Below, in pieces: positions 11,801-25,915 of a stretch of DNA of 37,580 nucleotides. The translations under genes and the position numbers were made by a program. The first letter of the stretch is position 1. Every line of letters starts with the position of its first letter. The stretch is from Emticicia aquatilis. Lineage in GTDB: Bacteria > Bacteroidota > Bacteroidia > Cytophagales > Spirosomataceae. The stretch spans positions 1 to 37,580 of the forward strand of contig NZ_BMKK01000025.1 in NCBI RefSeq assembly GCF_014644295.1. The letters run 5' to 3'. The notes beneath the pieces were generated by a model that was not told the origin of the DNA, did not search any database, and saw only the letters and a program-made list of their open reading frames with translations.

Positions 11801-14800
11801 AGTAGCCACCGCCACCACCGCCGCCGCCGCCAGTACCATTGTAAAATGTTGTAGAACCATTCCCTCCAAGACCAAGATTACCATTTGCTCCAATTGTCCA
11901 TGTATTTCTTAAACAAGCAGTATTACCTGTATAGTTTCCAGCATTACCTCCAGCAAGTTGTGTTCCTGCTGCTCCAAAGTTTCCTCCACCACCTCCACAG
12001 TTACAAGGTGTACCTGTGCCGGCAGTTCCATTAAGTGCGGTAAGTCCACCACCGTTCCCACCATTGCCCGCAGGGCCAGCAACTTGGCAGCCTGGCCATG
12101 TGCCATTTTGGCCACCACCACCGCCACCACCAGCTACAATTACCCTATTGTTCAGAGCAGTGCCTCCAACTCTTACATCAGAAGCCCCACCTCCATTAGG
12201 AGCGTTACCAATACTATTTCCTCCAAATGTTGTATTTCCGTTGAAACCTCCAGTTCCACCGCCATTAAAACCATTTTTTCCACCAACATAAATATTTAAA
12301 ACTTGGCCAGGTGTCACGGACAACGTTCCAGTAGCAGTACCACCTAATCCACCAGTGCCACCAATACTTGCATCAGCACCTTTCGCACCTTTGGCTGTAA
12401 TATTTATTGAAGTTACTCCGGCTGGAACAGTAAAAGTTTGTACCGCTCCTGTATATAAAAAAGTTTGATTTACCAAAGTTGAACCATTGGTTAAATCATT
12501 TTGACATAATGGGTAATATTTAGTAGGAGCAGTAAGATTGGGCGTAACAAAAGGACTTGTGGTACTTACAATGTTTCCGCCAGTCATAGAGTCATACCAA
12601 ACTACATTTCCTGTTGAGCAATTGGCTGTTAATGTTGCAGTTGTATTGTTACAAATAGTAGGGTTATTAGTACCCGTTGGGAGAGAAGGCGAGGTAATTA
12701 CTGTAACCTGATTGGTTGCAACTCTACTACTAAAACAAATATCGTTTACACATGCAGCATAGTAGGTAGTATTACTTGTTGGTGACTGAGAAAAACTGCT
12801 TCCAGTGCCTAAAGATGTTCCACCTGTGCTTTGGTTATACCATGTTATCGTTCCAATTGAACAATTTCCTGTTAGCGATACACTTTCTCCAGAACATATT
12901 GTATTTTTATCAACTGAAACATTTGTTGGAATGATTGGTTGGGTAGTTACTGTTACTTCTCCAGTAGCAACTCTTGCACTTTCACAAGTACCGTCAGAAC
13001 AAGCTGCATAATAAGTAGCAGTGTTAGACGGAGTGTAATTGAAAGTAGAACCACTACCTATTGATGTTCCTCCTGTAGCCTGTGTGTACCATAATACAGT
13101 ATTTATAGCGGCATTGCTTGCATTAATTGATTTAGAGTATTCTGAACCAGTTAGTTTAGAAGGATTTTGCGAAAATATATTAGGTGTGTTAAGACTTGTA
13201 CAAGAAGCAGATAAGGTTATACTTGAACCACTACAAATATTTGTGTTATTGACTGAAACTCCTGTAGGGTTAGCGAGAATAGCTTTAATTTCAAGTCCAG
13301 TAACAGGTGTGCTTACATCAGAAGTACAGCCATTGACAGTACAAGTAGCTGATATACTATAAGTGCCAGCAGCAGAGAGTGTAAGATTCGCCCCCGTGCT
13401 ACCCCCTTGCGACCAAGTAACCGTACCCGCACAACCGCTTGCGGTGAGAGTAAGTGTTGAAGGCGAACAAACGACTAAAGTAGTCGGTGGTGTAATAGTT
13501 GGAGCGTTTGGTTTGGCTTTAATTTCGAGACCGTTAATCGTAGCCGAAGCATCAGAGGTACAACCATTGACAGTGCAAGTAGCCGAAACCGCATAAGTAC
13601 CAACTGCTGAAAGTGTAAGACTCGTTCCCGTACTACCCCCTTGTGACCAAGTAACCGTACCCGCACACCCAGTTGCTGTAAGTGTAAGTGAAGAAGGTGA
13701 ACAAACCGAAAGGCTTGTTGGTGGGGTGATAGTTGGAGCATCTGGTTTAGCTTTAATTAATAAGCCATTATTTCCTGTACTCGATACAGAAGTACAACCA
13801 TTAGTAGTACATGTAGCCGAAACATTGTAAGTTCCAGGAACTGATATTGTTATACTCGTTCCAGTTGAATTATCTGACCAAGTAATAGTACCTGCACACC
13901 CACTTGCAGTTAGATTTAGAGTCGCTGGTTGACAAACAGTTGCAGGGCTTGTAAGTGTAACAGTTGGTGCAGCAGGAATTGTATAAACATTCACTGAATT
14001 AGAGGTAATAGTTCTGCCACTATTACAGTTTGTGCTTTCACAAGCTGCATAGAAAGATTGCCCAGTACCTGCCGAAGGTACATAGCTAAATGTGCCACCT
14101 GTACCGAGTTGGGTTGTTCCAGCAGCCGAGCCATACCAAGTTACAGTCCCAGAAGTACAAGTAGCCGAAAGCGTTATGCTTGTACCTACACAAGTATTTG
14201 TTGTGCTAATCGATACGCTTGTAGGCTTTATATTATTGAAATCAAACGGAACTGTAAACGTACATGTCCCATCGGTTACTTTGGTATAAAGTGTTTGTGA
14301 GCCTGCTGGAATTGTATTGTTTGCCGTAAACTTATTACCAACAGAAACATAAGTTCCCGCCGAAGTTGTTGCTCCTGCATCAGTAAAAATTCCGTTTACA
14401 GTATAATTATTACTGCCACCCAATGTAAATATTGGACAAGCATTTGTAATCACTACTTTGTTATTTGTAATACCCGAAACTGCATTAGCTTTTAATACAC
14501 CATTGTTTGTGAATGTACCAGTATTTGTAAAGCTATAAGTATTTGGCATTTGAATTAAACCTGAATTAGTGGTTGTTCCTGGGTTAGTATAAGTACCTGT
14601 GGTCATGATTATTTTGCCACAAGCATTATTAGCGATTGTATTCCCAGCAGGGTTTTCAATACCAGTTCCTGAATTAATATTTACTGTACCTGTATTTGTA
14701 AAAATAGTAGTTCCTAAAAACTTAAAGGCCAGCACCGAACCATCATAATTAATTGTACCAGCATTATTAAAGTTGACCGCATCTGTCGGTAACGCAATTT

Positions 14801-17800
14801 CTACCCCAATACCGTTGACAATATTAATTACCCCATTCAAGCTATTAGTAATTGTTGCAGGGGTTGATACTAAACCCACACCAATTGCTTCATCTGTACT
14901 ATTAATTTTAATTGTTCCATTATTAGTTAAAACTGCATTTCCTGATTGGAGATAAATGTAAGCAGCAACAGCAGTATTGGTGCTGGATTCTATATTGATT
15001 GTACCGTTATTCGTAACAGTACCACCAACAATCTGAAGCCCTTTATTTACGCCACCATCGCCTCTAATATTTAGAGTTTGTCCACTATTGATGGTCAATA
15101 ATGCACCTGATTGTACTTCAAGTGTTTTTACATCAGGAATACTACTTGAAATTACGGGCTTATTTGTAGTATTTGGAATCAATACTTTATTGTTAGTCAA
15201 ATCTGGCACCCAAGCAGGATTCCAGTTACAAGCTGTATTCCAATCAGTGCTTTCTAAGCCTGTCCAAGTGATATTTACATTACCTGGCGAAGTGCTTAAA
15301 GGTGTACATGGATTATAGGTAACCGTAACATTTGTACTTGGAGAGCTTACACAACCGTTGGTTCCAGTGCATCTTGCAAAAAATGTTTTTGTTGCTGTAA
15401 TTGCAGGGGTATTATTGGCTAATGCTACTGTACTATTAGATAGGTCATACCAACTAATAGTTGACGGAGAATTACAGCCTGTTGCTGTAAGTGAGGTAGT
15501 GTTTCCTGAAATTACTATGGTTGAAGGGGTAGCTATTGGGCTGGTTGGTGCAGATGGCTGGATATTTACGGTAACTGACACCGTTGACGTTGCCGTACAA
15601 CCTGCTGAGCTCGTTGCCGTTAAACCATAAATTTGCGAACCAGTAGCAGTTGGCACAGCTGTTGTTGTATTAGCATTTGCTAAAACAATCCCATTGCCGC
15701 TCCAAAGGTATGTTGTTGCACCAGCTGGGGCTGATAAATTTAAAGTGCTATTTTGACAAACTGGATTTGGGGTAGGAGTGATTGTTGCACTTGGTTGTGC
15801 ATTTACAGTAACTGACACTGTTGCCGTAGCTGTGCAACCAGTCGAACTTGTAGCTGTTAAACCATAAGTTTGTGGGCCAGTGGTAGTTGGCACAGCTGTT
15901 GTCGTATTGGCATTTGCTAAAACAATCCCATTACCACTCCAAAGGTATGTTGTTGCACCTGCTGGAGCTGATAAATTTAACGTTGAATTCTGACAAACAG
16001 GATTTGGTGTTGGAGTAATTGTCGCAACGGGGTTAGCATTACCTGTACCCTTAATATTTATAATATACGGACTATTCGTTGCATCATTATTTGTAAGCGT
16101 AATAGTTGCATTTTTTACACCTGCTGAACTTGGGTCAAATTGCACTGTAAATGTAACTGAACCTGCCGCCGCAATGGGTGAAGTTGGCTGCGTAGTAATC
16201 GAAAACTGCCCTGCATCTGCTCCACCCAAAACCGCTAATGGACTACCCGAAAGCGTTAGGTTTGAAAGCCCAGAGTTTTTGATAGTATAGGTTTTGCTAA
16301 CTATTCCACCCGTTACACAAGCTCCTCCAAAATCAGTATTATTGGCAGTTGCTGCTGCCCCACCATTCGTGATAGCATTGTTTGAAGCATCAGTTACTTC
16401 AATAATTGGTAAAGTATTGACAACTGTATAGTTGAAATTATCAATGTCACAAACTGTCAAAGACCCAGTTGTGCTTACCTGAACAGCCGTTAATAATACG
16501 TTTTCGAGAGCTGTACCCGCAAAACTGATATTTTGTGTCCAACCAGTGCCGTAAGGGATGCTTCCAGTAACAGTTTTAGTGGCAGTAGCTGTACCACCAC
16601 CTAATAATGTTCCTGTAAAAGTTATTGAGCCAGTTGCACCTGTTGTTAAGCTTGTTCCAACCCAAGCATCTATAAAGTTTAGTTTAAATGCTTTATTGGC
16701 TGTTGTAATCGTAAATGTCCCCTTACTACCCACTGACGTTGTATTAGAAGACCTCAGGAAAAAACCAGATGACCCACTACCGTTTGGCAATTCTTGACGA
16801 ACCGTAAATCCTCCAGATGTAGAAAAACTAACCCCACTTTGGCTAAAGGTTGTTGCAAGATTTGTTTCATCCTCAAACGTTTCAACCACACTATCGTCAT
16901 TCTGAATTATACCTGTACCGACCTGTTTCAAAAATACCGTTCCATTGGTAGCATTAGAAAGTGTCATGAAGAAAGTTTCATCAGGTTCAATCGAAGCATC
17001 TTTCAAAATTGTAACATTAACTGTTTGAGTTAAAGCACCACCACTCGTAAAGTTTAAAGTCGTGGTAGTGTAAGCCGTATAGTCAGTTCCAGCAGTCGCT
17101 GTACCATTTGATGAAGCCAAATCTACGGAGAATGCCGTAGTATTGTTTGTTCGAGTTACAGTAAATGTTGCCGTAGTACTTCCAGCACCAGTACCTTCAA
17201 TCACACTCACATCATCAATTGATAACTGGGTGTTGGTAAGTGTTGCGGTTCCGTATTTGAAATTATCAATTTGAAGGTATTGAATGCCCGTAGGTGTTGA
17301 AAACGAAATTGCCGAAAGCTGTACTCCCGCAAAGGGTGAACCCGCAAAAAGTACAGTAGAGTGAACATTTGTACCCGATGGTGTTATTGCTGCAGTATGT
17401 GTTACAGTACCTGAGCCATCAGCTTTTGTACCTGTAAAAGTAATTGTACAGTTAGTTGGTGTGTATGTGAAGTTTGGAGAAGTCCCCGTAACTGAGGCAG
17501 CCCATAAATCAACACTAATAACATTGAACGATTTTCCAGGTGAGGTTATCTGCAAAGAACCTTGATTTCCAACTGCATAAGGCTCAGTAGAAGCGGCATA
17601 ACCCGATGTTCCTCCTTGCCCGAAGTTGCCTGCATTTCGTACAATTAATTTCCCAGTTGTTTGAAAGTTATTTCCACTTTGTGAGAATGTTGAAGTTTGA
17701 TGCGTTTCATCATCAAATGGCTCATTAATGGCATCATCATCTAAGATTGTTCCCGTTCCTGTTGCATCTAATAAAACACCACCCGTTGGATTAGAAAGCG

Positions 17801-18692
17801 TCATTATAAATGTTTCGTCGGGTTCAACGGTTGCGTCACCATTGACCACTACGTTTACTGTTTGAGTCAAAGCTCCGCCTGCCGTAAAATTTAATGTTGT
17901 CAAAGGAAACGCTGTATAATCGCTCCCAGATGTAGCCGTTCCGTTTGAAGACTGTACTTGCACTGAACTTGCCGCAGTATTATTACTTCGAGTGACAGTA
18001 AAAGTAAAATTGGTTGTACCAGAGTTTCCCTCATTTTGACTTACATCGTTAATCGAAAACTGATTAGTTACAACCGCTTGGGTTGTGAAATTAATGTGGT
18101 CTAATTCAACAAACTGAACCGAAGCCGATGTCTGAATAGCCAATGAAGTTACATATACTCCATCTAAAGCAGTGCCTGTAAAACTCAATCCATTAACCAC
18201 ATTATTAGTTTCTCTTGTAAGTGGAGTTGTAACCGTACCAGTAGAAGGTACATTCACCGTGGCCGTGGCTGTTCCTCCACCTACTAATGTTCCCACAAAG
18301 GTTACATTGCCATTAGTAGCTACACTTCCACCTTTACTGGAACTTATGAAAGCTGCAAATGAATTGATTTTGAAGGAGGTACTTGCATTGTTAATAGTAA
18401 TACTTTTCGAGAGTCCTACTCCTTCGAGTTCATTGGCTATGACTATGTAAGAGGTAGAATTACTATAGCCAAATCTTGGAGTGGATATATTCTGAAAAAG
18501 TGTAGTAGAAAAAAAACTAATTCCACTCTCTGTAAAGGTATGAGGCGTTGTATTATTTAATGTCGTTTCATTCTCAAAATCCTCCGTAGCCGTAACCTGT
18601 GCAAGTGCATGAACAGACATCAATAAAACTACAGCAAAAGCCAGTAGAGTTTTGAAAGTTTTATTAAAAAATTGAGTAAAAATAGTTTTCAT
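8853..18692 (-). CDS. Giant secreted protein: Calx-beta, Ig-like repeats, glycine-rich domain, Gly-Cys C-terminal tail
   Basis: 3279 aa from ATG 18692. Signal peptide at residues 1-31 (ALA then Q). Three related modules opening with ED(E)T..TFSQSG-like phrases alternate with two Calx-beta domains (~211-325 and ~485-605, with VEPDETFIMTLSN and IEPDETFFMTLSN). A choice-of-anchor-D/HYDIN-like domain (~765-885, DFGGACV...FTVQFDPSSAG) is followed by PKD-like domains, a WTGLESTDWNTACNW segment with a beta-helix-like Asn/Thr-rich stretch (~1137-1450), further Ig-like domains, three 78-aa repeats, a glycine-rich domain (~2078-2351) and seven more 78-aa repeats (~2364-2907). The protein ends in a ~75-residue region with LSPGFESG and EIQGCSN, which resembles the Gly-Cys-ended '3-coathanger stack' tails of Bacteroidota surface proteins. 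It is a paralogue of the preceding giant gene. A terminator lies just after it. No substrate or ligand can be named. Confidence 0.93.
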   Translation of the reverse strand: MKTIFTQFFNKTFKTLLAFAVVLLMSVHALAQVTATEDFENETTLNNTTPHTFTESGISFFSTTLFQNISTPRFGYSNSTSYIVIANELEGVGLSKSITINNASTSFKINSFAAFISSSKGGSVATNGNVTFVGTLVGGGTATATVNVPSTGTVTTPLTRETNNVVNGLSFTGTALDGVYVTSLAIQTSASVQFVELDHINFTTQAVVTNQFSINDVSQNEGNSGTTNFTFTVTRSNNTAASSVQVQSSNGTATSGSDYTAFPLTTLNFTAGGALTQTVNVVVNGDATVEPDETFIMTLSNPTGGVLLDATGTGTILDDDAINEPFDDETHQTSTFSQSGNNFQTTGKLIVRNAGNFGQGGTSGYAASTEPYAVGNQGSLQITSPGKSFNVISVDLWAASVTGTSPNFTYTPTNCTITFTGTKADGSGTVTHTAAITPSGTNVHSTVLFAGSPFAGVQLSAISFSTPTGIQYLQIDNFKYGTATLTNTQLSIDDVSVIEGTGAGSTTATFTVTRTNNTTAFSVDLASSNGTATAGTDYTAYTTTTLNFTSGGALTQTVNVTILKDASIEPDETFFMTLSNATNGTVFLKQVGTGIIQNDDSVVETFEDETNLATTFSQSGVSFSTSGGFTVRQELPNGSGSSGFFLRSSNTTSVGSKGTFTITTANKAFKLNFIDAWVGTSLTTGATGSITFTGTLLGGGTATATKTVTGSIPYGTGWTQNISFAGTALENVLLTAVQVSTTGSLTVCDIDNFNYTVVNTLPIIEVTDASNNAITNGGAAATANNTDFGGACVTGGIVSKTYTIKNSGLSNLTLSGSPLAVLGGADAGQFSITTQPTSPIAAAGSVTFTVQFDPSSAGVKNATITLTNNDATNSPYIINIKGTGNANPVATITPTPNPVCQNSTLNLSAPAGATTYLWSGNGIVLANANTTTAVPTTTGPQTYGLTATSSTGCTATATVSVTVNAQPSATITPTPNPVCQNSTLNLSAPAGATTYLWSGNGIVLANANTTTAVPTATGSQIYGLTATSSAGCTATSTVSVTVNIQPSAPTSPIATPSTIVISGNTTSLTATGCNSPSTISWYDLSNSTVALANNTPAITATKTFFARCTGTNGCVSSPSTNVTVTYNPCTPLSTSPGNVNITWTGLESTDWNTACNWNPAWVPDLTNNKVLIPNTTNKPVISSSIPDVKTLEVQSGALLTINSGQTLNIRGDGGVNKGLQIVGGTVTNNGTINIESSTNTAVAAYIYLQSGNAVLTNNGTIKINSTDEAIGVGLVSTPATITNSLNGVINIVNGIGVEIALPTDAVNFNNAGTINYDGSVLAFKFLGTTIFTNTGTVNINSGTGIENPAGNTIANNACGKIIMTTGTYTNPGTTTNSGLIQMPNTYSFTNTGTFTNNGVLKANAVSGITNNKVVITNACPIFTLGGSNNYTVNGIFTDAGATTSAGTYVSVGNKFTANNTIPAGSQTLYTKVTDGTCTFTVPFDFNNIKPTSVSISTTNTCVGTSITLSATCTSGTVTWYGSAAGTTQLGTGGTFSYVPSAGTGQSFYAACESTNCNSGRTITSNSVNVYTIPAAPTVTLTSPATVCQPATLNLTASGCAGTITWSDNSTGTSITISVPGTYNVSATCTTNGCTSVSSTGNNGLLIKAKPDAPTITPPTSLSVCSPSSLTLTATGCAGTVTWSQGGSTGTSLTLSAVGTYAVSATCTVNGCTSDASATINGLEIKAKPNAPTITPPTTLVVCSPSTLTLTASGCAGTVTWSQGGSTGANLTLSAAGTYSISATCTVNGCTSDVSTPVTGLEIKAILANPTGVSVNNTNICSGSSITLSASCTSLNTPNIFSQNPSKLTGSEYSKSINASNAAINTVLWYTQATGGTSIGSGSTFNYTPSNTATYYAACSDGTCESARVATGEVTVTTQPIIPTNVSVDKNTICSGESVSLTGNCSIGTITWYNQSTGGTSLGTGSSFSQSPTSNTTYYAACVNDICFSSRVATNQVTVITSPSLPTGTNNPTICNNTTATLTANCSTGNVVWYDSMTGGNIVSTTSPFVTPNLTAPTKYYPLCQNDLTNGSTLVNQTFLYTGAVQTFTVPAGVTSINITAKGAKGADASIGGTGGLGGTATGTLSVTPGQVLNIYVGGKNGFNGGGTGGFNGNTTFGGNSIGNAPNGGGASDVRVGGTALNNRVIVAGGGGGGGQNGTWPGCQVAGPAGNGGNGGGLTALNGTAGTGTPCNCGGGGGNFGAAGTQLAGGNAGNYTGNTACLRNTWTIGANGNLGLGGNGSTTFYNGTGGGGGGGGGYYGGGSGGSGSDTTPGGGGGGGSSYIGGVTNGNVTVGDNADDGQIVFSYNQTQIFTCSSNRVEVSVSINPVTTPTVNAPTQLVVCAPNTLTLTATCISGNVLWSDNSTGTSLTISAVGTYSISAVCVFNGCTSAASNIVTGLEIKSKPNAPTITPPTSLSVCSPSSLTLTASGCAGTVTWSQGGSTGTSLTLSAVGTYAVSATCTVNGCTSDASATVNGLEIKAKPNAPTITPPTTLVVCSPSTLTLTASGCAGMVTWSQGGSTGTSLTLSAVGTYSISATCTVNGCTSDPSTSVNGLEIKAKPNAPTVTPPTSLSVCSPSSLTLSASGCAGTVTWSQGGSTGTSLTLSAVGTYSISATCTANGCTSDASTTVNGLEIKAKPNAPAITPPTTLVVCSPSTLTLTASGCAGTVTWSQGGSTGTSLTLSATGTYAISATCTVNGCTSDASTSVNGLEIKAKPNAPTVTPPTSLSVCSPSSLTLSASGCAGTVTWSQGGSTGTSLTLSAVGTYAVSATCTVNGCTSDASATVNGLEIKAKPNALTITPPTTLVVCSPSTLTLTASGCAGMVTWSPSAATGTSLTLSAVGTYSISATCTVNGCTSDASTTVTGLEIKATPIITATNTGPYTVGQTINLNGTGGGSYSWNGPNNFSSTLSNPTISNTLSVNGGVYTLSVVGTNGCSAIATTNVVINGVDPCDPSRIVDYLYVKAGNPYQPLFPLTNGMIINQMTDQVSILVNPVCPSVTIESFEMNLQGPEMNWNILQNVSPYALFDNFGLDVWGRNFKPGNYTLTVTGYAQDNKGGGVTYGPKIITFTVVGNLATINAPTLSKTAICAGNSVDVTFSTTGTFNGSNQFSVELSDSSGSFAAPILIGTTNTTGTLTCTIPQNTLEGTKYLIRVTSSNQVVVSNPAISQVTVHPLAYNLVSPNNNLTGTNTKKAVNTINASNKVSSPANITYQAGKSIVLSPGFESGAVFKAEIQGCSN
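9965..11600 (-). repeat. Seven-unit 234-bp repeat array in the second giant gene
   Basis: The same 78-aa, four-Cys Ig-like unit as at 790-3345. The VCSPS codons recur every ~234 bp from about 10146 to 11551, again with alternating TLVV and SLSV unit types. Words of 30 or more bases are shared with the array in the neighbouring gene. Confidence 0.9.
11640..12460 (-). other. Glycine-rich domain (ALK/LTK-type Gly_rich) within the second giant protein
   Basis: About 270 residues rich in GGxGG runs. They open with FTVPAGVTSINITAKGAKG, continue through IYVGGKNG and NNRVIVAGGGGGGG, and close with GGGGGSSYIGG then DGQIVFSY. This layout matches the glycine-rich domain known from ALK/LTK receptors and from bacterial surface proteins. 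The DNA is dense in ccg/cca triplets (for example 11744-11832), so in-frame slippage is possible. It interrupts the Ig-like repeats, between the variant repeats and the seven-unit array. Confidence 0.75.
13290..13990 (-). repeat. Second, shorter set of 78-aa Ig-like repeats (three units)
   Basis: Units with VCSPS codons near 13465 and 13700 plus a diverged unit near 13930, of the same type as the larger arrays. The two inner units share long exact words with 10,100-11,350, whereas the outer one has diverged (VCQPATLNLTASGCAG). Confidence 0.8.
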
Positions 18693-18866: not shown

Positions 18867-19400
18867 TTAATTCCTTGATGGAAAAAGACCCACTAATGCA
18901 ACACTATAATTAATGGCAAGGTAGGGCTGCATATTACTGTGCGGCTGATTTCCACCAGCCATAGATGTAGCCGACGCCATCGGTACAGGTGACGTAGAAA
19001 CATTTGTGTAAATTGTTGGCATTGTGCCACCTGTACGTGCTTGAGAAGCCAACGAAGCACCTGCGGCAGTAGCTTGTGTTGGGCCATCACCTGATGCTGT
19101 CATTAAGTGATTGTGAGCTGGTATTTGTGTGCTCAAAAGTGTAACATTTTCTGTACCAGCCATTTCACCTTGCGAATAGGGACTCAAACCCGCTCCTTGA
19201 CCCATTCCGATTGGAACTCTTCCTTGCAGATTAGGTAAACCAAATGTCACCCTACCATCACCACCATAGGTGGTACCAAACAATGCGAAAAGGGCACTAT
19301 TAGTTTGGATTGATAAAAGCTGACCATTGCATAATGCCCAGCCTTTTGGGGGAAAATTGAAGCCAAACATGGCTATCATACCGATAAATGGTTGATCCAT
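18867..19400 (-). CDS. Phage tail collar (MdpB-like) protein, copy 1
   Basis: 177 aa from ATG 19400; an upstream in-frame TTG at 19424 is less likely because the paralogue also starts MDxPFIG. Residues ~5-60 form the tail collar domain (PF07484 type): IGMIAMFGFNFPPKGWALCNGQ, then LFALFGTTYGGDG and FGLPNLQGRVPIG. Then come GTENVTL, IPAHNH, a Ser/Ala/Thr-rich loop, GNQPHSNMQPYLAINY and a FPSRN end. Such proteins were first known from phage short-tail fibres, but many bacteria carry chromosomal copies ('microcystin-dependent protein') of unclear role. No phage structural genes are nearby. It lies 39 bp after copy 2, to which it is very similar, and is probably co-transcribed with it. Confidence 0.9.
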   Translation of the reverse strand: MDQPFIGMIAMFGFNFPPKGWALCNGQLLSIQTNSALFALFGTTYGGDGRVTFGLPNLQGRVPIGMGQGAGLSPYSQGEMAGTENVTLLSTQIPAHNHLMTASGDGPTQATAAGASLASQARTGGTMPTIYTNVSTSPVPMASATSMAGGNQPHSNMQPYLAINYSVALVGLFPSRN

Positions 19401-19439
19401 AGTATTATTGATTAAGAGATGCAATAATTATTTAAAAAA

Positions 19440-19973
19440 TTAATTTCTTGATGGATAAATGCCTTCCAAAGCTATGCTATAATTAATTGCAAGGTATGGT
19501 TGTATATTGCTATGAGGCTGATTACCACCCGAAATTGAGGTAGCGGATGCCAACGGCACAATATTCGTAGCACCATTTGCATATATAACTGGCATTGTGC
19601 CGCCTGTACGTGCCTGAGAAGCCAAAGACGCACTTGCAGCCGTAGCCTGTGTCGGGCCATCACCCGATGCTGTCATCTGGTGGTTGTGCTGTGGTATTTG
19701 TGTGATATTGAGCGTAACATTTTCTGTACCAGCCATTTGCCCCAAAGCATAACTACTCAAACCTGCTCCTTGACCAAAGCCAATAGGTATTCTACTTTGT
19801 AAATTAGGTAAGCCAAAAGTTTGGATGCCATCACCACCGTAAGTGGTGCCAAGCAATGAGAAAAGTGCTGAGTTCTGTGCGATAGATATCAATTGACCAT
19901 TACAAAAAGCCCAACCACGAGGAGCGTAATTGAAGCCAAACATGGCTATCATGCCAATAAATGGAGAATCCAT
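19440..19973 (-). CDS. Phage tail collar (MdpB-like) protein, copy 2
   Basis: 177 aa from ATG 19973, the same length and architecture as copy 1: MDSPFIGMIAMFGFNY, GWAFCNGQL, LFSLLGTTYGGDG, FGLPNLQSRIPIG, GTENVTL, IPQHNH, GNQPHSNIQPYLAINY and YPSRN. Most differences from copy 1 lie in the Ser/Ala-rich loop around residues 110-150, the expected variable tip region. No signal peptide or membrane segment is visible. The first gene of this two-gene unit, it is divergent from the 20081 gene with a short shared upstream region. A tandem duplication is the simplest origin. Function is not established. Confidence 0.9.
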   Translation of the reverse strand: MDSPFIGMIAMFGFNYAPRGWAFCNGQLISIAQNSALFSLLGTTYGGDGIQTFGLPNLQSRIPIGFGQGAGLSSYALGQMAGTENVTLNITQIPQHNHQMTASGDGPTQATAASASLASQARTGGTMPVIYANGATNIVPLASATSISGGNQPHSNIQPYLAINYSIALEGIYPSRN

Positions 19974-20080
19974 AATTTTAGGAGGTTTTAAAAGGTTATA
20001 AAATGAGAAAAATTAAAAATTACTATACATTACGAATAAATATTTATCTTTCGAGCAAAAATCAAAAACTCACTTTACTA

Positions 20081-20605
20081 ATGATTGACTATAAAGACCA
20101 TTCTTATTTAGCTCCCATTCTAAAATTCTTTGACCAAATTGGTATTGCTTACCAACTGACCCAAATCACCGAGCCGATGTTTTTGCCGGGCATCCGTATT
20201 CAAGATGGCATATTGCTCATTGATACCGAGCATTTACTTTATCCGGGTGATGTAATCTATGAGGCTGGGCATTTGGCCGTAGCACCTCCTGAGGTTCGGC
20301 CTAAACTCACTGACCCTATCAAAGAACAACTCGACTTCGACGAAGCAACCCACGAAATGATGACTTTAGCTTGGGCGTATGCGGCGGCAATCAAATCTGA
20401 AATACCACTCGAAGTTCTTTTTCATCCTGACGGCTACAAAGGACAACATTTACAAATTATGCAAGGTTACCAATCTGGCATGTATATAGGTTTACCTATG
20501 TTACAGTGGCTCGGAATGGCTTATGATGCCAACAATGCTCATCAATTAGGCGAAAAGCCTTTTCCTGAAATGAAACTTTGGCTTAGACCACCCAGTATCA
20601 AGTAA
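20081..20605 (+). CDS. Unrecognised conserved protein, YEAGH variant, paralogue of the gene at 21188-21691
   Basis: 174 aa from ATG 20081, chosen because the paralogue's ATG aligns here (MIDYKDHSY...FDQIG versus MIKTEEEVF...INKIG). An upstream ATG at 20003, with AAAGG 7 nt before it, would give 200 aa. Shared landmarks are FLPGIRIQDGILLID, YPGD, YEAGHLA, a D/E-AT-EM motif, AWAYAAA, FHPDGYKG, LQWLGMAYD and a PEMKLWLR end. The sister protein has HEAGH, a possible HExxH zinc-protease-like motif; here the first His is Tyr, so metal binding may be lost. I do not recognise the family. Its place beside tail-collar genes and a beta-hydroxylase remnant suggests a shared pathway. Confidence 0.8.
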   Translation: MIDYKDHSYLAPILKFFDQIGIAYQLTQITEPMFLPGIRIQDGILLIDTEHLLYPGDVIYEAGHLAVAPPEVRPKLTDPIKEQLDFDEATHEMMTLAWAYAAAIKSEIPLEVLFHPDGYKGQHLQIMQGYQSGMYIGLPMLQWLGMAYDANNAHQLGEKPFPEMKLWLRPPSIK

Positions 20606-20643
20606 ACAAAGCCTCTTTTTAAACTCCCGATACTCAACGTCTA

Positions 20644-20826
20644 TTGAAAAACTTGGTAACCTGCCGAGTTTCTCAATGGGCGTTACATTTCAACCGAATC
20701 GACTTTACAGGTAATTGGTCGAATTATGTGCTTAGGTCTGTCTCGGAGAATGAGTCCGATGAGTCGATTATTCTTTACGTTTTTTATCAAAATACCCTAA
20801 TTGTTGAAAAATGCACTAATTTCTAA
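20644..20826 (+). pseudogene. Remnant of an Asp/Asn beta-hydroxylase (N-terminal part only)
   Basis: About 60 codons align with residues ~16-75 of the intact hydroxylase at 21909. Examples are QWALHFNRIDFTGNWSNYVLRS against EWPLHFNQNDFTGHWSSFSLRS, and EKCTNF against QKCTYF. The frame then stops, and the catalytic His and Arg part is absent downstream. It follows the YEAGH gene on the same strand. This is best explained as the decayed partner of a duplicated HEAGH-hydroxylase pair; a functional micro-protein is unlikely. Confidence 0.7.
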
Positions 20827-21187
20827 GATACCTCACAAAAATTGATAGGATGGGTAGCATAAAACATTGCAAGTTAGATTTTATTAAGACCCCTCACATG
20901 GGTAAAAATACCTGTTTTAACAAATAGCAATTTGCCTTCGAGAATGACATCTAATCGATACACTTAAGCGAGCGAACCATCTGAAAATTATTGTATTTTA
21001 GTTACAAGGAAAATATTTTGAATGGAGTAAGGGCTTTTTTGAACGTCTGTAAGTTGAGTAAATTGATTGATAATGTGTCTAAGTCGCACTGAATATTTGT
21101 GAATGTTTTCTTTCATGCCAATAATCACCTGTGCATGAAAGTGTTAATGTCGGCTCTTTGGGTGTTAGTAACAGGCTTGTAACTTGG
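20827..21187 (+). other. Non-coding stretch between a pseudogene and the HEAGH gene
   Basis: No credible gene is seen in these ~360 bases. The AT-rich, stop-rich sequence may be degraded remainder of the hydroxylase copy, but I cannot align it. One hairpin is visible: CTTTCATGC (21110-21118) pairs with GCATGAAAG (21133-21141) across a 14-nt loop, downstream of the minus-strand HEAGH gene. It could end that transcript, although no T-run follows. Confidence 0.4.
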
Positions 21188-21691
21188 TTAGCTTCTTATC
21201 CAAGAAATCATTTTTGGGTAAGAAAGCGTATTATTTCGATGTATGTAAGTTATGTTATTTGCCATTCCGTACCATTGAAGTATTGGAACACCAAAATATC
21301 TTCCCTGTCCGAAGTTCTCTAAGATGCTTTGGCTTCCACCTTTATAGCCATCTGGATGAAAGACAATTGCAGGGTCAATTTCAATTTCCAGACAAGCGGC
21401 ATACGTCCAAGCAATAACTGCCATTTCAGTTGCCTCAGGGTCGTTTTGTCCTTCCAATGCCCCCGATAAATCCGCTCTTTGTGCAGCTGACATTAAAGCA
21501 ATATGGCCTGCTTCGTGCAAGGTGTCGCCTATGTAACTCAATTTGTCTTTATCTATTTGCAAAATCCCTTTTTCAATTCTTAAACCGGGTAAAAAAGTAT
21601 TATCATTGATTGTACAAAACTTAATTTGGATTCCAATTTTATTTATAAAATCAATAATTTTTGAAAATACCTCTTCTTCAGTCTTAATCAT
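21188..21691 (-). CDS. Unrecognised conserved protein with HEAGH (HExxH-like) motif
   Basis: 167 aa from ATG 21691; an in-frame TTG at 21745 would add 18 residues, but the ATG aligns with that of the paralogue. Landmarks are FLPGLRIEKGILQID, SYIGDTLHEAGHIAL, DPEATEMAVIAWTYAA, FHPDGYKGG, ILQWYGMA and YPKMISWIRS. HEAGH fits HExxH, and the Glu of ATEM about 40 residues later, or the His of FHPDG, could complete a metal site as in small zinc peptidases. That is inference, and the family is not one I can name. It diverges from the beta-hydroxylase operon and is inverted relative to its paralogue at 20081. No signal peptide is seen. Confidence 0.82.
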   Translation of the reverse strand: MIKTEEEVFSKIIDFINKIGIQIKFCTINDNTFLPGLRIEKGILQIDKDKLSYIGDTLHEAGHIALMSAAQRADLSGALEGQNDPEATEMAVIAWTYAACLEIEIDPAIVFHPDGYKGGSQSILENFGQGRYFGVPILQWYGMANNITYIHRNNTLSYPKMISWIRS

Positions 21692-21862
21692 GTTTTGTAT
21701 CGTAATAGCTTGAAAATGTAGATTATTCCTGATATAGTGTTGCAATGTAATTATTTAATTCAAAGTGCAATAATTATTTTTTCATTTTTTAGTGAGTGGT
21801 ATTTATTGGAAAAAAAACTCCGATTTATTCTTCTAAAAATACTGATTTAATAAACTATATTC

Positions 21863-21870
21863 TATATTTG
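21863..21870 (+). promoter_or_regulatory. Bacteroidota -7 box for the beta-hydroxylase/sulfotransferase/PhyH operon
   Basis: TATATTTG is an exact match to the TAnnTTTG -7 consensus, 38 bp before ATG 21909. No convincing -33 TTTG is visible at the expected distance, so strength is uncertain. Confidence 0.5.
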
Positions 21871-21908
21871 AGGCCAATAATTTATAGCCTTTAATCATAT
21901 ATTAACAA

Positions 21909-22598
21909 ATGGAATCGTATAAATTTTCGTTTCACTTCGATACCCAAAAATTAATCAACGACCTTCGTCTTTGTCAAGCAACTGAATGGCCACTTCATTT
22001 CAACCAAAACGATTTTACGGGTCATTGGTCAAGTTTTTCGTTGCGTTCAATCTCGGGCAAAGAGTCGGATATTTTGGCTACTCCCAATGCTTGTTTTCAA
22101 GATACTCCGACGCTACAAAAATGTACATATTTTCAAGAAATTATCAATCAGTTCGATTGCCCCAAAGAGGCCGTTCGGTTATTATCTCTTTCGCCCAATA
22201 GTTATATTAAAGAGCATACTGATGCCTCAAGTGGCTACGAAGATGGCTTTTTTAGAATTCATGTACCGATTCAGACCAACGAGAAAGTTGTTTTTAGAGT
22301 AAACGGAAAGGTTTTGCCAATGCAAATAGGGGAGTGTTGGTATGCCAATTTTAATTTACCGCATTATGTGGCAAACGATGGTGATTGTGACAGAATTCAT
22401 CTGGTGATTGATTGTATCAGAAATGAATGGTCGGATAGCCTTTTTGCTGAAATTGGCTACGATTTTGAAGCCGAAAAGAAAAGCAACTACGATACTAAAA
22501 CCAAGTTGTTGATGATTGAACATTTATCATTAATGAAAACCGAAACCGCAATGAAAATGATTGCTCAACTTAAAGCCGAAATAGGAGAAAATGCTTGA
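21909..22598 (+). CDS. Aspartyl/asparaginyl beta-hydroxylase family protein
   Basis: 229 aa from ATG 21909. The core resembles the Asp_Arg_Hydrox fold (PF05118), an iron/2-oxoglutarate oxygenase: KEHTDASSGY (H103, D105), FRIHVPIQTN (H118), GECWYANFNLPHYVANDG (H152) and DRIHLVIDC (R162). By family comparison H118 and H152 are candidate iron ligands and R162 binds 2-oxoglutarate; H103/D105 could also take part. Known relatives hydroxylate Asp or Asn side chains or small substrates. The stop overlaps the start of the sulfotransferase by 8 bp, so the two are translationally linked. An N-terminal remnant of a second copy lies at 20644. Confidence 0.88.
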   Translation: MESYKFSFHFDTQKLINDLRLCQATEWPLHFNQNDFTGHWSSFSLRSISGKESDILATPNACFQDTPTLQKCTYFQEIINQFDCPKEAVRLLSLSPNSYIKEHTDASSGYEDGFFRIHVPIQTNEKVVFRVNGKVLPMQIGECWYANFNLPHYVANDGDCDRIHLVIDCIRNEWSDSLFAEIGYDFEAEKKSNYDTKTKLLMIEHLSLMKTETAMKMIAQLKAEIGENA

Positions 22599-23547
22599 AA
22601 ATAAAACGCTCAAAAATTGGATTCCCTTTAAATTAGATTTTGATTCTGACCCAATTGTTTGTCGCTGGTTGTATGTAGCTGATAAAACATACACCGAACC
22701 TTTCTTTCACGAAACCACCGCCAAGTGTGGAAGTTTTGAGGAGAATCGTAAATTCTTCAAGGCAGCTTCAACTTTGGAAGGGATAATTGAATTTACTGAG
22801 TGTTTACCAACAATTGCACCAACGGCATTTATTTTTCATGTTTCACGATGCGGTTCGACGCTTTTGGCTCAGTTACTTTCTTTAGACGAACAAAATATTG
22901 TTTTGGCCGAACCGCCCATCTTTGATGAGGTTTTACGAGAAGTAGCTTTCAAAAATACCGATATTTCGGAAAAGACTATCAATGAATCATTAAAGGCAGT
23001 TGTAAAGTTTTTGGGACAAAAACGAACGGGTTTAGAAAAGAATTTCTTTATCAAACTTGATAGTTGGCATATATTTTACTATCAAAAACTCAGGGAATTG
23101 TATCCCGAAACGCCTTTTATTTTTTCTTTCCGACGACCCGATGAAGTCATACGTTCACAAATAAAAGAATCTGGTATGCACGCTGCACCTGGTGTTATTC
23201 AGCCAGAAGTTTTTGGGTTTACGTTGGAAGAAGTTTTGGCCGTTGAACGTCCAGTATATGTGGCAAAAGTTTTAGAGAAATACTTTGAGCAATATTTACA
23301 AATTATTGAAAACGACAAAAATGCCCTCTTTATTAATTATTCAGCTGGTATTTTGACGAATTTAGATAAAATTGAGCAATTCTTACAACTGAAAATCGAG
23401 CCTACAATCAGACAAAAAATGGTGGAACGAACACGTTTTCATAGTAAAAGTCCGAATACTGTTTTTTCTGAACCGCCCTTGGATGATGTATTGCCCGATT
23501 ATCAACAAAAAGTGTATAGTTTGTATGAAACTTTAGTGCAGAAATGA
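22591..23547 (+). CDS. Sulfotransferase family protein (PAPS-dependent)
   Basis: 318 aa. The 5'-phosphosulfate loop is clear at residues 81-96 (IFHVSRCGSTLLAQLL), and the 3'-phosphate-binding segment is IFSFRRPDEVIRSQ (177-190), the layout of the Sulfotransfer families. Such enzymes move sulfate from PAPS to hydroxyl or amino groups on tyrosine, sugars, lipids or small molecules; the acceptor cannot be read from sequence. ATG 22591 overlaps the hydroxylase stop by 8 bp, and its own stop overlaps the PhyH start by 4 bp, so three genes form a tight operon. An APS kinase that would make the donor is at 25397-25915. Confidence 0.88.
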   Translation: MLENKTLKNWIPFKLDFDSDPIVCRWLYVADKTYTEPFFHETTAKCGSFEENRKFFKAASTLEGIIEFTECLPTIAPTAFIFHVSRCGSTLLAQLLSLDEQNIVLAEPPIFDEVLREVAFKNTDISEKTINESLKAVVKFLGQKRTGLEKNFFIKLDSWHIFYYQKLRELYPETPFIFSFRRPDEVIRSQIKESGMHAAPGVIQPEVFGFTLEEVLAVERPVYVAKVLEKYFEQYLQIIENDKNALFINYSAGILTNLDKIEQFLQLKIEPTIRQKMVERTRFHSKSPNTVFSEPPLDDVLPDYQQKVYSLYETLVQK

Positions 23548-24458
23548 AAAACATATCGGTTTTAGATAATTTTAGAGAACAAATTTTAGCGAATATCGCC
23601 ATTGAACCAAATGATTGGAATGTTTTTCAGAAAACGCTTTTTGAATATGGTATTGGTATGGAAGAGACCTTACAATTTCTCTACGGCAATCAGCCAAATT
23701 CAACTGATTTTGCTGAGTGGATTGATAAAAACAAGTGTATTTATCAAAGTCTGAATATCGAAGATGTTCCAGACGTATTGACGCAAGACGATTTAGATTT
23801 TTGGAACACAAATGGATATGCAGTCCTTAAAAATGCTATTTCGAGAGAAGATTGTTTGGCTACCCAAGCGGCGATTTTGGAGTTTTTGGAAGCATCTTTA
23901 GAGAATCCAAGTTCATGGTACAAAAGCCATGAAGCTAAAGAAGGCTTAATGGTTCTTCTGACAAAACATCCTACTTTGGAGAAAAATCGTGCTTCAATAA
24001 CTATTCAAAAAGCCTATCAACAACTTTATGGAACACAAGAAATTTATCGGGTCATCGACAAAGTGAGTTTTAATCCACCCGAAAATAACCACTTTAAATT
24101 TTTAGGAAGTTCACTTCATTGGGATGTTAGCCTAAATCTGCCGATTCCTTTCCAATTACAAGGATTGCTCTATTTAACTGATGTAAAAGAAAACAGTGGG
24201 GCGTTTCATTGTGTAGCTGGTTTTCATCATCAAATAGAAAATTGGATGCAAAACTTACCGCAAAACGCCAGTCCAAGAGAAATTGCGGTACAGGAATTAA
24301 AGCCCATTCCTGTACTTGGAAACGCTGGTGATTTTATTATTTGGCACCAAGCTTTACCGCATTGTGCTACACCCAACACCAGCAATTTGCCCCGAATGGT
24401 TCAATATTTAACGTATTTACCCATTGAAAATAATAATAAGACCAATGTTTGGATTTGA
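23544..24458 (+). CDS. Phytanoyl-CoA dioxygenase (PhyH) family protein
   Basis: 304 aa. The PhyH-type double-stranded beta-helix is marked by LHWDVSLN (H192, D194), a distal LPHCATPN (H273) and LPRMVQYL (R284): the HxD...H iron triad and the 2-oxoglutarate arginine. The first ~75 residues are a helical lead with no family I know. PhyH-family members hydroxylate or halogenate small molecules or carrier-bound substrates. Last gene of the plus-strand operon, it ends 3 bp from the convergent formyltransferase gene with no obvious terminator between them. Confidence 0.88.
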   Translation: MKNISVLDNFREQILANIAIEPNDWNVFQKTLFEYGIGMEETLQFLYGNQPNSTDFAEWIDKNKCIYQSLNIEDVPDVLTQDDLDFWNTNGYAVLKNAISREDCLATQAAILEFLEASLENPSSWYKSHEAKEGLMVLLTKHPTLEKNRASITIQKAYQQLYGTQEIYRVIDKVSFNPPENNHFKFLGSSLHWDVSLNLPIPFQLQGLLYLTDVKENSGAFHCVAGFHHQIENWMQNLPQNASPREIAVQELKPIPVLGNAGDFIIWHQALPHCATPNTSNLPRMVQYLTYLPIENNNKTNVWI

Positions 24459-24461
24459 ATT

Positions 24462-25385
24462 TTAGATAGGAATTGTTTCAAAAACATCGCCCTTGTTTAT
24501 ACCGAGGCTCATCAATGATTCGCCCACTAAGAAACCAATTGTTGAATAAATTGCTTTTATAGAAATGGCTGTATCATTGATACAACTTACCTCGATTTGA
24601 TTCTCATCGATATTTATTATTTCTCCTGCCTTAGTAGTAGGCATATTTTTTATGCTCGCTTCCAAAATCTTCAAATCCATGCCATTTATTCGGGCGATTG
24701 CACCATTATTCCAAGGATTACAGGCTTTTATTAAAGCCATAATTTCGGGGGCAGACATGGTTTGCCAGTGAATAATAATATCTTTAAGGCTTGGTTTACT
24801 ATAAAAAACTGAATTTTGATTTGACTGAGGAGTTAAAGTAAGTGCGTTCTTCAAGATTGCATCTAACAAGAAATAAACACCGTTTATGGTTAGATAACCA
24901 TAGTTTAAATCAAGCATAGCATGGTTAGCCTGAGGATTTAGGTCGAAATTTATCTCAAAAGCAATCGGACCAGTATCGTATTCTTCATCCATCTGATGAA
25001 TTGTCAAAGTGGCTTGCGTTTCTTGGTTTTTTATTTGCCAAAATACAGGATGCCCTCCTCCATACTTTGGGAGTTTTCCAAAATGAATATTAAAAAAGCC
25101 CAATTTTGGTAAAACCAATATTTCTTTTCTTATTTTGTACGAAAAGCCAAGAACCAATACAATATTGGCATTGAGATTTTCAAGCCAATCTTTGATTTGT
25201 TTGGTGATTGATTTTTTTTTGAATATGTTTGCCGTAATCTGCTTTTGTTGACAGACAGCCTCAAAGTTTTTAAAAAACTCATTATCTTGTTCTGTCGCAG
25301 CCACACCCACCAAAAGACCTTGAGCGTGTAACCAATCAAGTAAAGGAAAAACAGCATTGCTATTACCAATTAAAGCTACTCTCAT
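24462..25385 (-). CDS. Formyltransferase-like protein (methionyl-tRNA formyltransferase fold)
   Basis: 307 aa from ATG 25385; an in-frame TTG at 25400 is less likely because MRVALIGNSNAV is the normal start of the fold. The N-terminal formyl-transfer domain has FFNIHFGKLPKYGGGHPVFW (N99, H101) and DEEYDTGPI (D137), the Asn-His-Asp set used with 10-formyl-tetrahydrofolate. Residues ~195-300 look like the C-terminal Fmt-like barrel (CNPWNNGAIARING...LKILEA). It is probably not the housekeeping Fmt, as it lacks the usual LLPRWRGAAP form and is co-directional with cysC (11-bp gap). It may formylate an amino sugar or amine in the same pathway as the neighbouring enzymes. Confidence 0.8.
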   Translation of the reverse strand: MRVALIGNSNAVFPLLDWLHAQGLLVGVAATEQDNEFFKNFEAVCQQKQITANIFKKKSITKQIKDWLENLNANIVLVLGFSYKIRKEILVLPKLGFFNIHFGKLPKYGGGHPVFWQIKNQETQATLTIHQMDEEYDTGPIAFEINFDLNPQANHAMLDLNYGYLTINGVYFLLDAILKNALTLTPQSNQNSVFYSKPSLKDIIIHWQTMSAPEIMALIKACNPWNNGAIARINGMDLKILEASIKNMPTTKAGEIINIDENQIEVSCINDTAISIKAIYSTIGFLVGESLMSLGINKGDVFETIPI

Positions 25386-25396
25386 AATCTTGAAAT

Positions 25397-25915
25397 TCAA
25401 TTATTTAAAATAAAATCTACTACTTTGGATGTTGATTCGTCAATACTTTCAGATGCTGTGTTTACCGCTAAGTCGGGGTTTTTAGGTATTTCAAAAGTAT
25501 CATTTATGCCTGTAAAATTATGAATACAATCTGGATGGTTTTTGGGTAAAAAAGCTCTTTTATAAAGTCCTTTTGTATCTCGTTGCTGCAAAGTTTGAAT
25601 ATCACATTCAACGAAAATTGTTTTAGCTTGATATTTTTCGGCTAACTCTTGCCGAATTTCCTCATAAGGATTAATCGCCGAAATAATTACAATTACTTTA
25701 TTTTGAGCTAAAAGATTGGCCACAAAACCCATTCTACGCACATTTTCGCAACGATGTTCTTTTGAAAAACCTAAATCTGGGCAAAGGTTTTTGCGGAAAA
25801 TATCTCCATCTAAAACTTCGATAGCATGGCCTCTTTCAATAAGCTTTGCTTTTACATTTAATGCAATTGTAGATTTACCAGCACCCGATAGTCCAGTCAT
25901 TTGGAAGATTCTCAT
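25397..25915 (-). CDS. cysC: Adenylylsulfate kinase (APS kinase)
   Basis: 172 aa from ATG 25915. It phosphorylates adenosine 5'-phosphosulfate to PAPS. Visible marks are the P-loop GLSGAGKST (8-16), DGD (36-38), FSKEHRCENVRRMGFVA (50-66), KGLYKRA and FTGINDTFEIP, all typical of CysC. The usual phosphate-accepting Ser in ISPYR is replaced here (SAINPYEEIR, Asn-82), with a Ser three residues earlier. This is a stand-alone kinase with no CysD/CysN sulfurylase beside it, so APS must come from elsewhere. Its place next to a sulfotransferase suggests a dedicated PAPS supply. A terminator separates it from secG, and it is followed by the formyltransferase gene. Confidence 0.9.
   Translation of the reverse strand: MRIFQMTGLSGAGKSTIALNVKAKLIERGHAIEVLDGDIFRKNLCPDLGFSKEHRCENVRRMGFVANLLAQNKVIVIISAINPYEEIRQELAEKYQAKTIFVECDIQTLQQRDTKGLYKRAFLPKNHPDCIHNFTGINDTFEIPKNPDLAVNTASESIDESTSKVVDFILNN

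Follow-up and report, generated by a model that had tools for sequence, protein, structure and literature searches.

Stand-alone phage-fibre-like collar proteins in Emticicia aquatilis, with a giant secreted protein and a variable set of tailoring enzymes as neighbours

What would two proteins that resemble the tip of a phage tail fibre be doing in a bacterium, next to enzymes apparently suited to hydroxylation, sulfation and formylation? The question is raised by a 37,580-nucleotide stretch of Emticicia aquatilis DNA (NZ_BMKK01000025.1, hereafter the window), which is one entire contig of a 6.75-Mb assembly. A first-pass annotation had pointed out nine genes between 18867 and 25915, namely two tail-collar proteins, two proteins of the HEAGH family, two Fe(II)/2-oxoglutarate (2OG) oxygenases, a sulfotransferase, a formyltransferase and the adenosine 5′-phosphosulfate (APS) kinase CysC, and all nine open reading frames (ORFs) were found in their places. 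Family, context and recurrence show that the collars are stand-alone relatives of the receptor-binding head of gp12, the short tail fibre of T4, and that they lie beside a giant protein with immunoglobulin (Ig)-like repeats. The reading favored here, with a probability of about 0.4, is that the product of the locus is a surface structure which derives from a phage fibre, is chemically decorated and is deployed together with a giant adhesin.

The two collar genes lie in tandem on the reverse strand. Collar A (about 177 aa; 18867..19400, probable start ATG at 19400, this and the other starts being judged from the sequence) and collar B (177 aa; 19440..19973), which is 79% identical to A in the alignment, score 95.6 and 96.1 bits, respectively, against PF07484, where the curated cut-off is 24. 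No signal peptide was seen on collar A, by eye as in all signal-peptide statements below. The T4 gp12 structure 1ocy matches positions 5–166 of the 175 in the collar-family profile (E 7e-8), and the HxH pair of gp12 is aligned with an HKH in that match; an AlphaFold2 (AF2) model of the collar, with a predicted local distance difference test (pLDDT) score of 57, was too poor for use. The earlier statement that there is no phage structural context held up, as no phage gene was seen besides the collars. Among the nine cluster proteins only the two collars matched tail families in PHROGs, and none of the seven flanking proteins scanned (SecG, whose gene is the next one to the right of the cluster, TPR, LptE, a sigma-54 regulator, MiaB-like, GntP and Ig_7) was phage-like. 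A prophage or phage tail module was rejected for this reason, since the PHROGs and flank scans turned up no other structural phage genes nearby.

The next gene downstream, which shares the collars' strand, encodes a giant protein of 3279 aa (8853..18692, reverse strand) with a signal sequence and with Ig_7 and Calx-beta repeats, and it belongs to the same recurring unit as the collars. Taking as giant any protein of at least 900 aa, 83 small-collar loci were fetched, 24 in the order and 59 in Flavobacterium, and in 60 of them a giant starts at most 3.5 kb downstream of the small collars on the same strand; of the remainder, a contig end truncates 11, and 12 are without a giant. The background is given by the collar-free HEAGH loci, where 9 of 659 genes are that long. 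The giant secreted protein, which was missing from the first-pass list, is the steadiest partner of the collars, steadier than the tailoring set, and collar and giant together are the most constant elements of these loci. Three giants lie in the window, at 1..8613 (reverse), 8853..18692 and 32394..37430 (forward). The second and third, which were scanned, contain Ig_7 repeats and have similar ends; the first runs past the contig end, and the terminal sequence there is also present in the 8853..18692 giant.

A scan of named genomes with HEAGH2 gave 51 loci, in which the window proteins were matched by blastp and the derived profiles were run over all ORFs. The fetched flanks contain the hydroxylase at 19 loci, a collar at 12, the sulfotransferase and the PhyH-type oxygenase at 7 each, the formyltransferase at 6 and cysC at 5, along with a NodU-type carbamoyltransferase (6), 2OG-FeII_Oxy_3 (5), a Peripla_BP_6-like binding protein (4), a Dioxygenase_C-like protein (4) and GNAT (2), where the Pfam names of the additional neighbour families rest on one member each. 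A tailoring gene occurs at 23 of the 51 loci, and at 11 of the 12 that have a collar. The closest of them, locus L005 of Emticicia sp. HJF.15, holds one HEAGH gene, the window's enzymes, a second PhyH and three collars, as well as 2OG-FeII_Oxy_3, Dioxygenase_C and binding-protein genes. Outside Bacteroidota, parts of the set occur together in Methylobacter (L044: HEAGH, DUF6916, GNAT, hydroxylase, collar, sulfotransferase), Granulicella (L017: collar, HEAGH, PhyH, cysC), Pseudoalteromonas CF6-2 (L057: Ig-like giant, tail fiber, formyltransferase, HEAGH) and on an Azospirillum TSH100 plasmid (L258, 8640–18299: PqqD, sulfotransferase-like, HprK-like, AsnB, JmjC_2, three collars, GNAT, DUF6916, Transglut_core3).

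The enzymes near the collars are swappable, and comprise the sulfotransferase, the carbamoyltransferase, GNAT, the formyltransferase, other 2OG oxygenases, JmjC_2 and a PRMT-like TPR protein. Two layouts recur, one with collar(s), binding protein, formyltransferase and giant, the other with three collars, GNAT, DUF6916 and giant. The collar–GNAT–DUF6916–giant layout was seen in L106, L107, L109 and L006, where DUF6916 was Pfam-checked in L109 and the 99-aa genes at the same place in Flavobacterium are unchecked; the open-access literature search returned no paper on DUF6916. At L101 (5978–7741) a TPR protein whose C-terminal part is PRMT-like is encoded between the aspH (hydroxylase) and binding-protein genes, near a collar. 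The carbamoyltransferase adjoins HEAGH or is fused with it, as in L024 (969–3191), where a NodU-type carbamoyltransferase and a HEAGH domain share one ORF. The variable genes are united by their chemistry, with oxygenases able to make hydroxyls and transferases capping hydroxyl or amino groups with sulfate, carbamoyl, acetyl, formyl or methyl.

The first-pass annotation would have been undermined had these families met no more often than by chance, and the comparison of neighbourhoods and genomes showed that the gene set co-occurs beyond chance. The order was sampled with 148 genomes, in which PF07484 collars are present in 40 (long phage-type ones counted); the collar loci fetched from the order cover 38 places and leave out certain weaker or secondary ones (e.g., in G003, G032, G034, G090, G095, G123, G136 and G142). 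Collars were present in all genomes with HEAGH (7/7), the hydroxylase (7/7, at 9 places) or the sulfotransferase (6/6). The binding protein was matched in 15 genomes, with collars in 9/9 of the strong and 3/6 of the weak matches (E 1e-14 to 1e-18), and the union of HEAGH, hydroxylase, sulfotransferase and strong binding-protein genomes carries collars in 13 of 13 cases (hypergeometric P 7.9e-9, uncorrected for phylogeny). The genes are also close together. HEAGH lies at most 5 kb from a collar in 5/7 genomes, the exceptions being G030 and G051 (copy on a 5.5-kb contig), the hydroxylase within 7 kb at 7/9 places, the sulfotransferase within 6 kb at 5/6 places, adjoining the hydroxylase at 6/6, and the strong binding-protein matches within 1.3 kb at 9/9.

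A blinder test was provided by 160 Flavobacterium genomes, because the sulfotransferase profile contains no Flavobacterium member. The sulfotransferase was found in 21 of the 160 and the collar profile in 54, with collars in 21/21 genomes with the sulfotransferase and 33/139 without it (P 5.4e-12, again without phylogenetic correction). From the 21 sulfotransferase-bearing genomes 25 collar loci were fetched, all of them without the cassette, and the tie between collar and sulfotransferase is therefore not mere linkage. The Peripla_BP_6-like protein, present in 30 of the 54 collar genomes versus 21 for the sulfotransferase, is the steadier collar partner in this genus. A wider sample of 395 genomes of the phylum contains, besides the E. 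aquatilis genome, 11 with the sulfotransferase, 9 of these being Flavobacterium; of the 11, 9 have cysC adjoining, 9 have the hydroxylase adjoining and 3 have collars within about 10 kb.

The catalytic residues of the two oxygenases, the sulfotransferase and the formyltransferase are conserved. The hydroxylase gene aspH (21909..22598, forward), the sulfotransferase gene sulfT (22591..23547, forward) and phyH (23544..24458, forward) are joined by overlaps of 8 and 4 bp, exactly as first described, whereas fmtL (24462..25385, reverse, probable start ATG at 25385) and cysC (25397..25915, reverse) are opposite in orientation to this operon. The hydroxylase matches PF05118 (64.9 bits), and its Fe ligands and 2OG-binding Arg (H103, D105, H152, R162) are invariant in 20/20 sequences. 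The initial label of Asp/Asn beta-hydroxylase stands only as the Pfam name of the family; the nearest solved relative of the profile is the L-proline cis-4-hydroxylase 4p7w (E 9.5e-24), and entries named beta-hydroxylase reach E 3e-7 at best. The sulfotransferase, which depends on 3′-phosphoadenosine 5′-phosphosulfate (PAPS), lies barely above the cut-off of PF13469 (28.3 versus 27 bits, i.e., by 1.3) and gave no sequence match in the PDB; both the 5′-phosphosulfate-binding (5′-PSB) and 3′-phosphate-binding (3′-PB) motifs are present, with the SRCGST loop, R181 and S189 invariant in 11/11. The PhyH-type protein (PF05721, 49 bits) has its HxD...H motif and Arg (H192, D194, H273, R284) invariant in 8/8, and its nearest relatives are EctD, SnoK and leucine hydroxylase. 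In the Fmt/ArnA-type formyltransferase (PF00551 and PF02911) the N-H-D catalytic triad (N99, H101, D137) is invariant in 12/12; an equivalog of the tRNA-Met formyltransferase was rejected, the TIGR00460 score of 120.7 bits falling below the cut-off of 201.5. CysC scores above cut-off in PF01583 (152 bits) and TIGR00455 (168.8 bits, cut-off 138.7), and the proposal that it would supply PAPS to the sulfotransferase was strengthened by the adjoining cysC in 9 of the 11 further genomes (8/9 without a nearby collar).

Between the collars and this operon lie the HEAGH genes and a gene remnant. HEAGH1 (20003..20605, forward) carries a degenerate YEAGH motif and probably starts at ATG 20081 rather than at 20003. 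It is followed by an N-terminal aspH fragment (20629..20823, forward; tblastn, E 5e-19) with 65 recognisable codons at 46% identity to the intact aspH and then stops, which suggests that a further copy of aspH has decayed beside the degenerate YEAGH gene. HEAGH2 (21188..21691, reverse, probable start ATG at 21691) has an HExxH motif with a downstream Glu and is a predicted metalloprotein; E60, H63 and E89 are invariant and H59 nearly so among 45 sequences, and the AF2 model has a pLDDT of 90.8. Neither HEAGH protein matched a Pfam family. Membership of the sequence family of the elongation factor P (EF-P) hydroxylase EpmC/YfcM was rejected, with no EpmC match in Pfam and an hhalign probability of 7.9%; the values for ArdC (5.5) and CapP (4.4) were similarly low. 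Collars (PF07484), HEAGH, hydroxylase and sulfotransferase occur in this genome only at this locus (the latter two judged at E<=1e-10), and HEAGH is present in only 3 of 11 genomes of the genus Emticicia, so that the cluster is accessory. The family was also met elsewhere, in L030, L034 and L041 (about 9245–10450; three species of Algoriphagus) as a fusion with a methyltransferase identified by eye, consecutive with another sulfotransferase and CysD, near glycosyltransferase and ABC transporter genes, in Azospirillum lipoferum (L058, 6981–10567), and as a distant member between PD-(D/E)XK nuclease and UvrD-helicase genes on a Pseudomonas aeruginosa plasmid (L060, 9980–10525); among plasmid records with a HEAGH match, 109 of 124 are from Pseudomonas.

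The simplest reading of the decorated structure is that the collar is the substrate of the tailoring enzymes. Collars and enzymes, on neither of which a signal peptide was seen, would meet in the cytoplasm, where collar side chains would be hydroxylated by one 2OG oxygenase or by both, perhaps aided by the HEAGH metalloprotein, and could then be sulfated by the sulfotransferase, fed by CysC. Elsewhere among the species the place of the sulfotransferase may be taken by a carbamoyltransferase of the NodU type, by a GNAT acetyltransferase or by a PRMT-like enzyme, and the formyltransferase may put on a further cap. Once outside the cell, the decorated fibre would work together with the giant protein in adhesion or recognition, and a swap of transferases would alter the chemistry of the fibre surface. 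A broader possibility, offered tentatively and with some doubt, is that the receptor-binding head of phage fibres has been domesticated as a surface protein by bacteria of several phyla, which evolved for it a dedicated and interchangeable modification toolkit, in which oxygenases provide hydroxyl handles for sulfate, carbamoyl, acetyl, formyl or methyl groups and the chemistry of the tip is switchable by a swap of transferase.

Several observations weigh against the collar as the decorated partner. The Ser/Thr-rich loop, which the first-pass annotation had taken as a clue, lost its value, since Ser plus Thr make up 21.5–22.1% in collars with and without the cassette alike. No collar site tracks the cassette cleanly and none was found to be diagnostic; collars of sulfotransferase loci or genomes more often have a Cys close to the C-terminus (37/53 versus 31/121 in the other groups), and both window collars carry Ala at that column. 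We know of no export route for collars. Both oxygenases resemble hydroxylases of free amino acids or small molecules. The sulfotransferase was not matched in 34 of the 40 collar genomes of the order and 33 of the 54 of Flavobacterium, and 8 of 9 mapped Flavobacterium cassette loci have no collar within about 10 kb, so that cysC, hydroxylase and sulfotransferase form a unit able to stand alone. Likewise, 27 of the 51 HEAGH loci have neither a collar nor a tailoring gene in the fetched flanks, and HEAGH is therefore broader than the collar system. The statistics also call for restraint, as phylogeny was left uncorrected, collar genomes make up 12/15 rather than 9/9 when weak binding-protein matches are counted, and the profiles A4–A6 drew some of their seeds from collar loci in this very sample of the order, so that this test shows few copies elsewhere and is not blind.

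The main rival is a small, hydroxylated and sulfated (or carbamoylated or formylated) ligand, amino-acid-like or aromatic, made by the enzymes, bound by the Peripla_BP_6-like protein where this is present, and bound or displayed by an unmodified collar. It is a serious alternative, rated somewhat unlikely, and owes its standing to hydroxylases that resemble small-molecule enzymes, a binding protein that resembles solute-binding proteins and the lack of a clean collar site. The aspH profile is nearest to 4p7w and 1e5r, the latter deposited under the name proline oxidase and taken here to be a proline 3-hydroxylase, and its sole NCBIfam match is TIGR04531 (non-proteinogenic amino acid hydroxylase), at 20.1 of 300 bits far under the cut-off. 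The kinship of PhyH with EctD, SnoK and leucine hydroxylase points the same way, as do the binding-protein family, nearest to 4evq/4ey3, whose ligands are presumably aromatic acids, the Dioxygenase_C-type protein adjoining collars in four HEAGH loci, and the formyltransferase, which is as close to ArnA-type sugar formyltransferases as to Fmt. Against the ligand stand the binding-protein gene, which is absent from the window, and the PRMT-like, JmjC_2 and GNAT neighbours, whose families act on many proteins; moreover, no non-ribosomal peptide synthetase, polyketide synthase or glycosyltransferase was seen to recur beside collars when neighbours were clustered by eye, with the unlabelled genes partly annotated.

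Improbable, by comparison with the decorated collar, is a reading in which the enzymes act on the giant secreted protein, before its export or in the course of it, and the collars are a second, separately acting product. The giant's constancy downstream of small collars (60/83 versus 9/659) would fit, but the giants split into several sequence clusters and singletons, no signal sequence was seen on the enzymes, and in L044 and L162 the collar, hydroxylase and sulfotransferase are present with no giant immediately next to the collars within the stretch covered. The chances are slimmer for a pathway like that of ribosomally synthesised and post-translationally modified peptides (RiPPs), in which a short unannotated precursor peptide would be the substrate of lasso-peptide-like enzymes in some lineages and of the oxygenase–sulfotransferase set in others. 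It is favored by the Azospirillum TSH100 collar locus, where PqqD, Transglut_core3, AsnB and HprK-like genes accompany the sulfotransferase-like one, and by L162, with PqqD, Transglut_core3, NTP_transf_5 and a sulfotransferase and no cyclase, and is opposed by the want of a lasso-type maturation gene among the window proteins scanned, the other collar loci being unscanned and no precursor search having been made. That a stand-alone sulfation cassette and a collar–giant locus share a genomic island by chance is very improbable in view of the co-occurrence in 21/21 and 13/13 genomes and linkage in several classes, despite the unlinked cassettes in Flavobacterium (8/9) and the 27 HEAGH loci with neither partner.

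Every enzyme here that has a family name belongs to a known family, and the enzymatic decoration of a surface protein is of a known kind. Within the open-access literature, a scope that leaves most subscription papers and preprints outside, nothing among the matches listed was found to link collar proteins to these enzymes, and the matches listed give no role for collars outside phages, where they bear the label “microcystin-dependent protein”. The partner set of giant secreted protein, binding protein, formyltransferase and sulfation cassette gives the collars a testable role. Should the collar be the substrate, phage parts would have found a new use here, in a bacterial protein-sulfation system with a prior oxygen-dependent hydroxylation; should a small molecule be the product, the cysC–hydroxylase–sulfotransferase cassette would be a candidate pathway for a sulfated metabolite tied to collar-bearing bacteria.

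Compared with known systems, the collars align with the C-terminal head of T4 gp12 over most of their own length, including the HxH pair; they differ in being stand-alone 177-aa proteins in tandem whose neighbour is a giant secreted protein, and no further phage gene was seen in the window. The enzyme classes are like those of T4-like cyanophages, which, according to PMC3037559, carry PhyH, asparaginyl hydroxylases, 2OG oxygenases and a carbamoyltransferase, explained there via host metabolism; for the window enzymes, however, tblastn gave few phage homologues or none. HEAGH has no sequence homology to the EF-P hydroxylase EpmC/YfcM (PMC4231759), the hhalign probability being 7.9%. Lasso-peptide-type maturation is represented by PqqD, Transglut_core3, AsnB and HprK-like genes beside the collars in Azospirillum TSH100, and by none of the window proteins scanned. 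The nearest parallel for sulfation is RaxX–RaxST of Xanthomonas, where, according to PMC6637879, the gene of a PAPS-dependent sulfotransferase adjoins that of the secreted peptide which RaxST sulfates, and the PAPS is made by housekeeping genes. Both are bacterial PAPS-dependent sulfotransferases; here, none of the described genes was seen to encode a RaxX-like peptide or a type I exporter, and instead the sulfotransferase is accompanied by oxygenases, has CysC inside its own cluster and has tail-collar proteins as neighbours.

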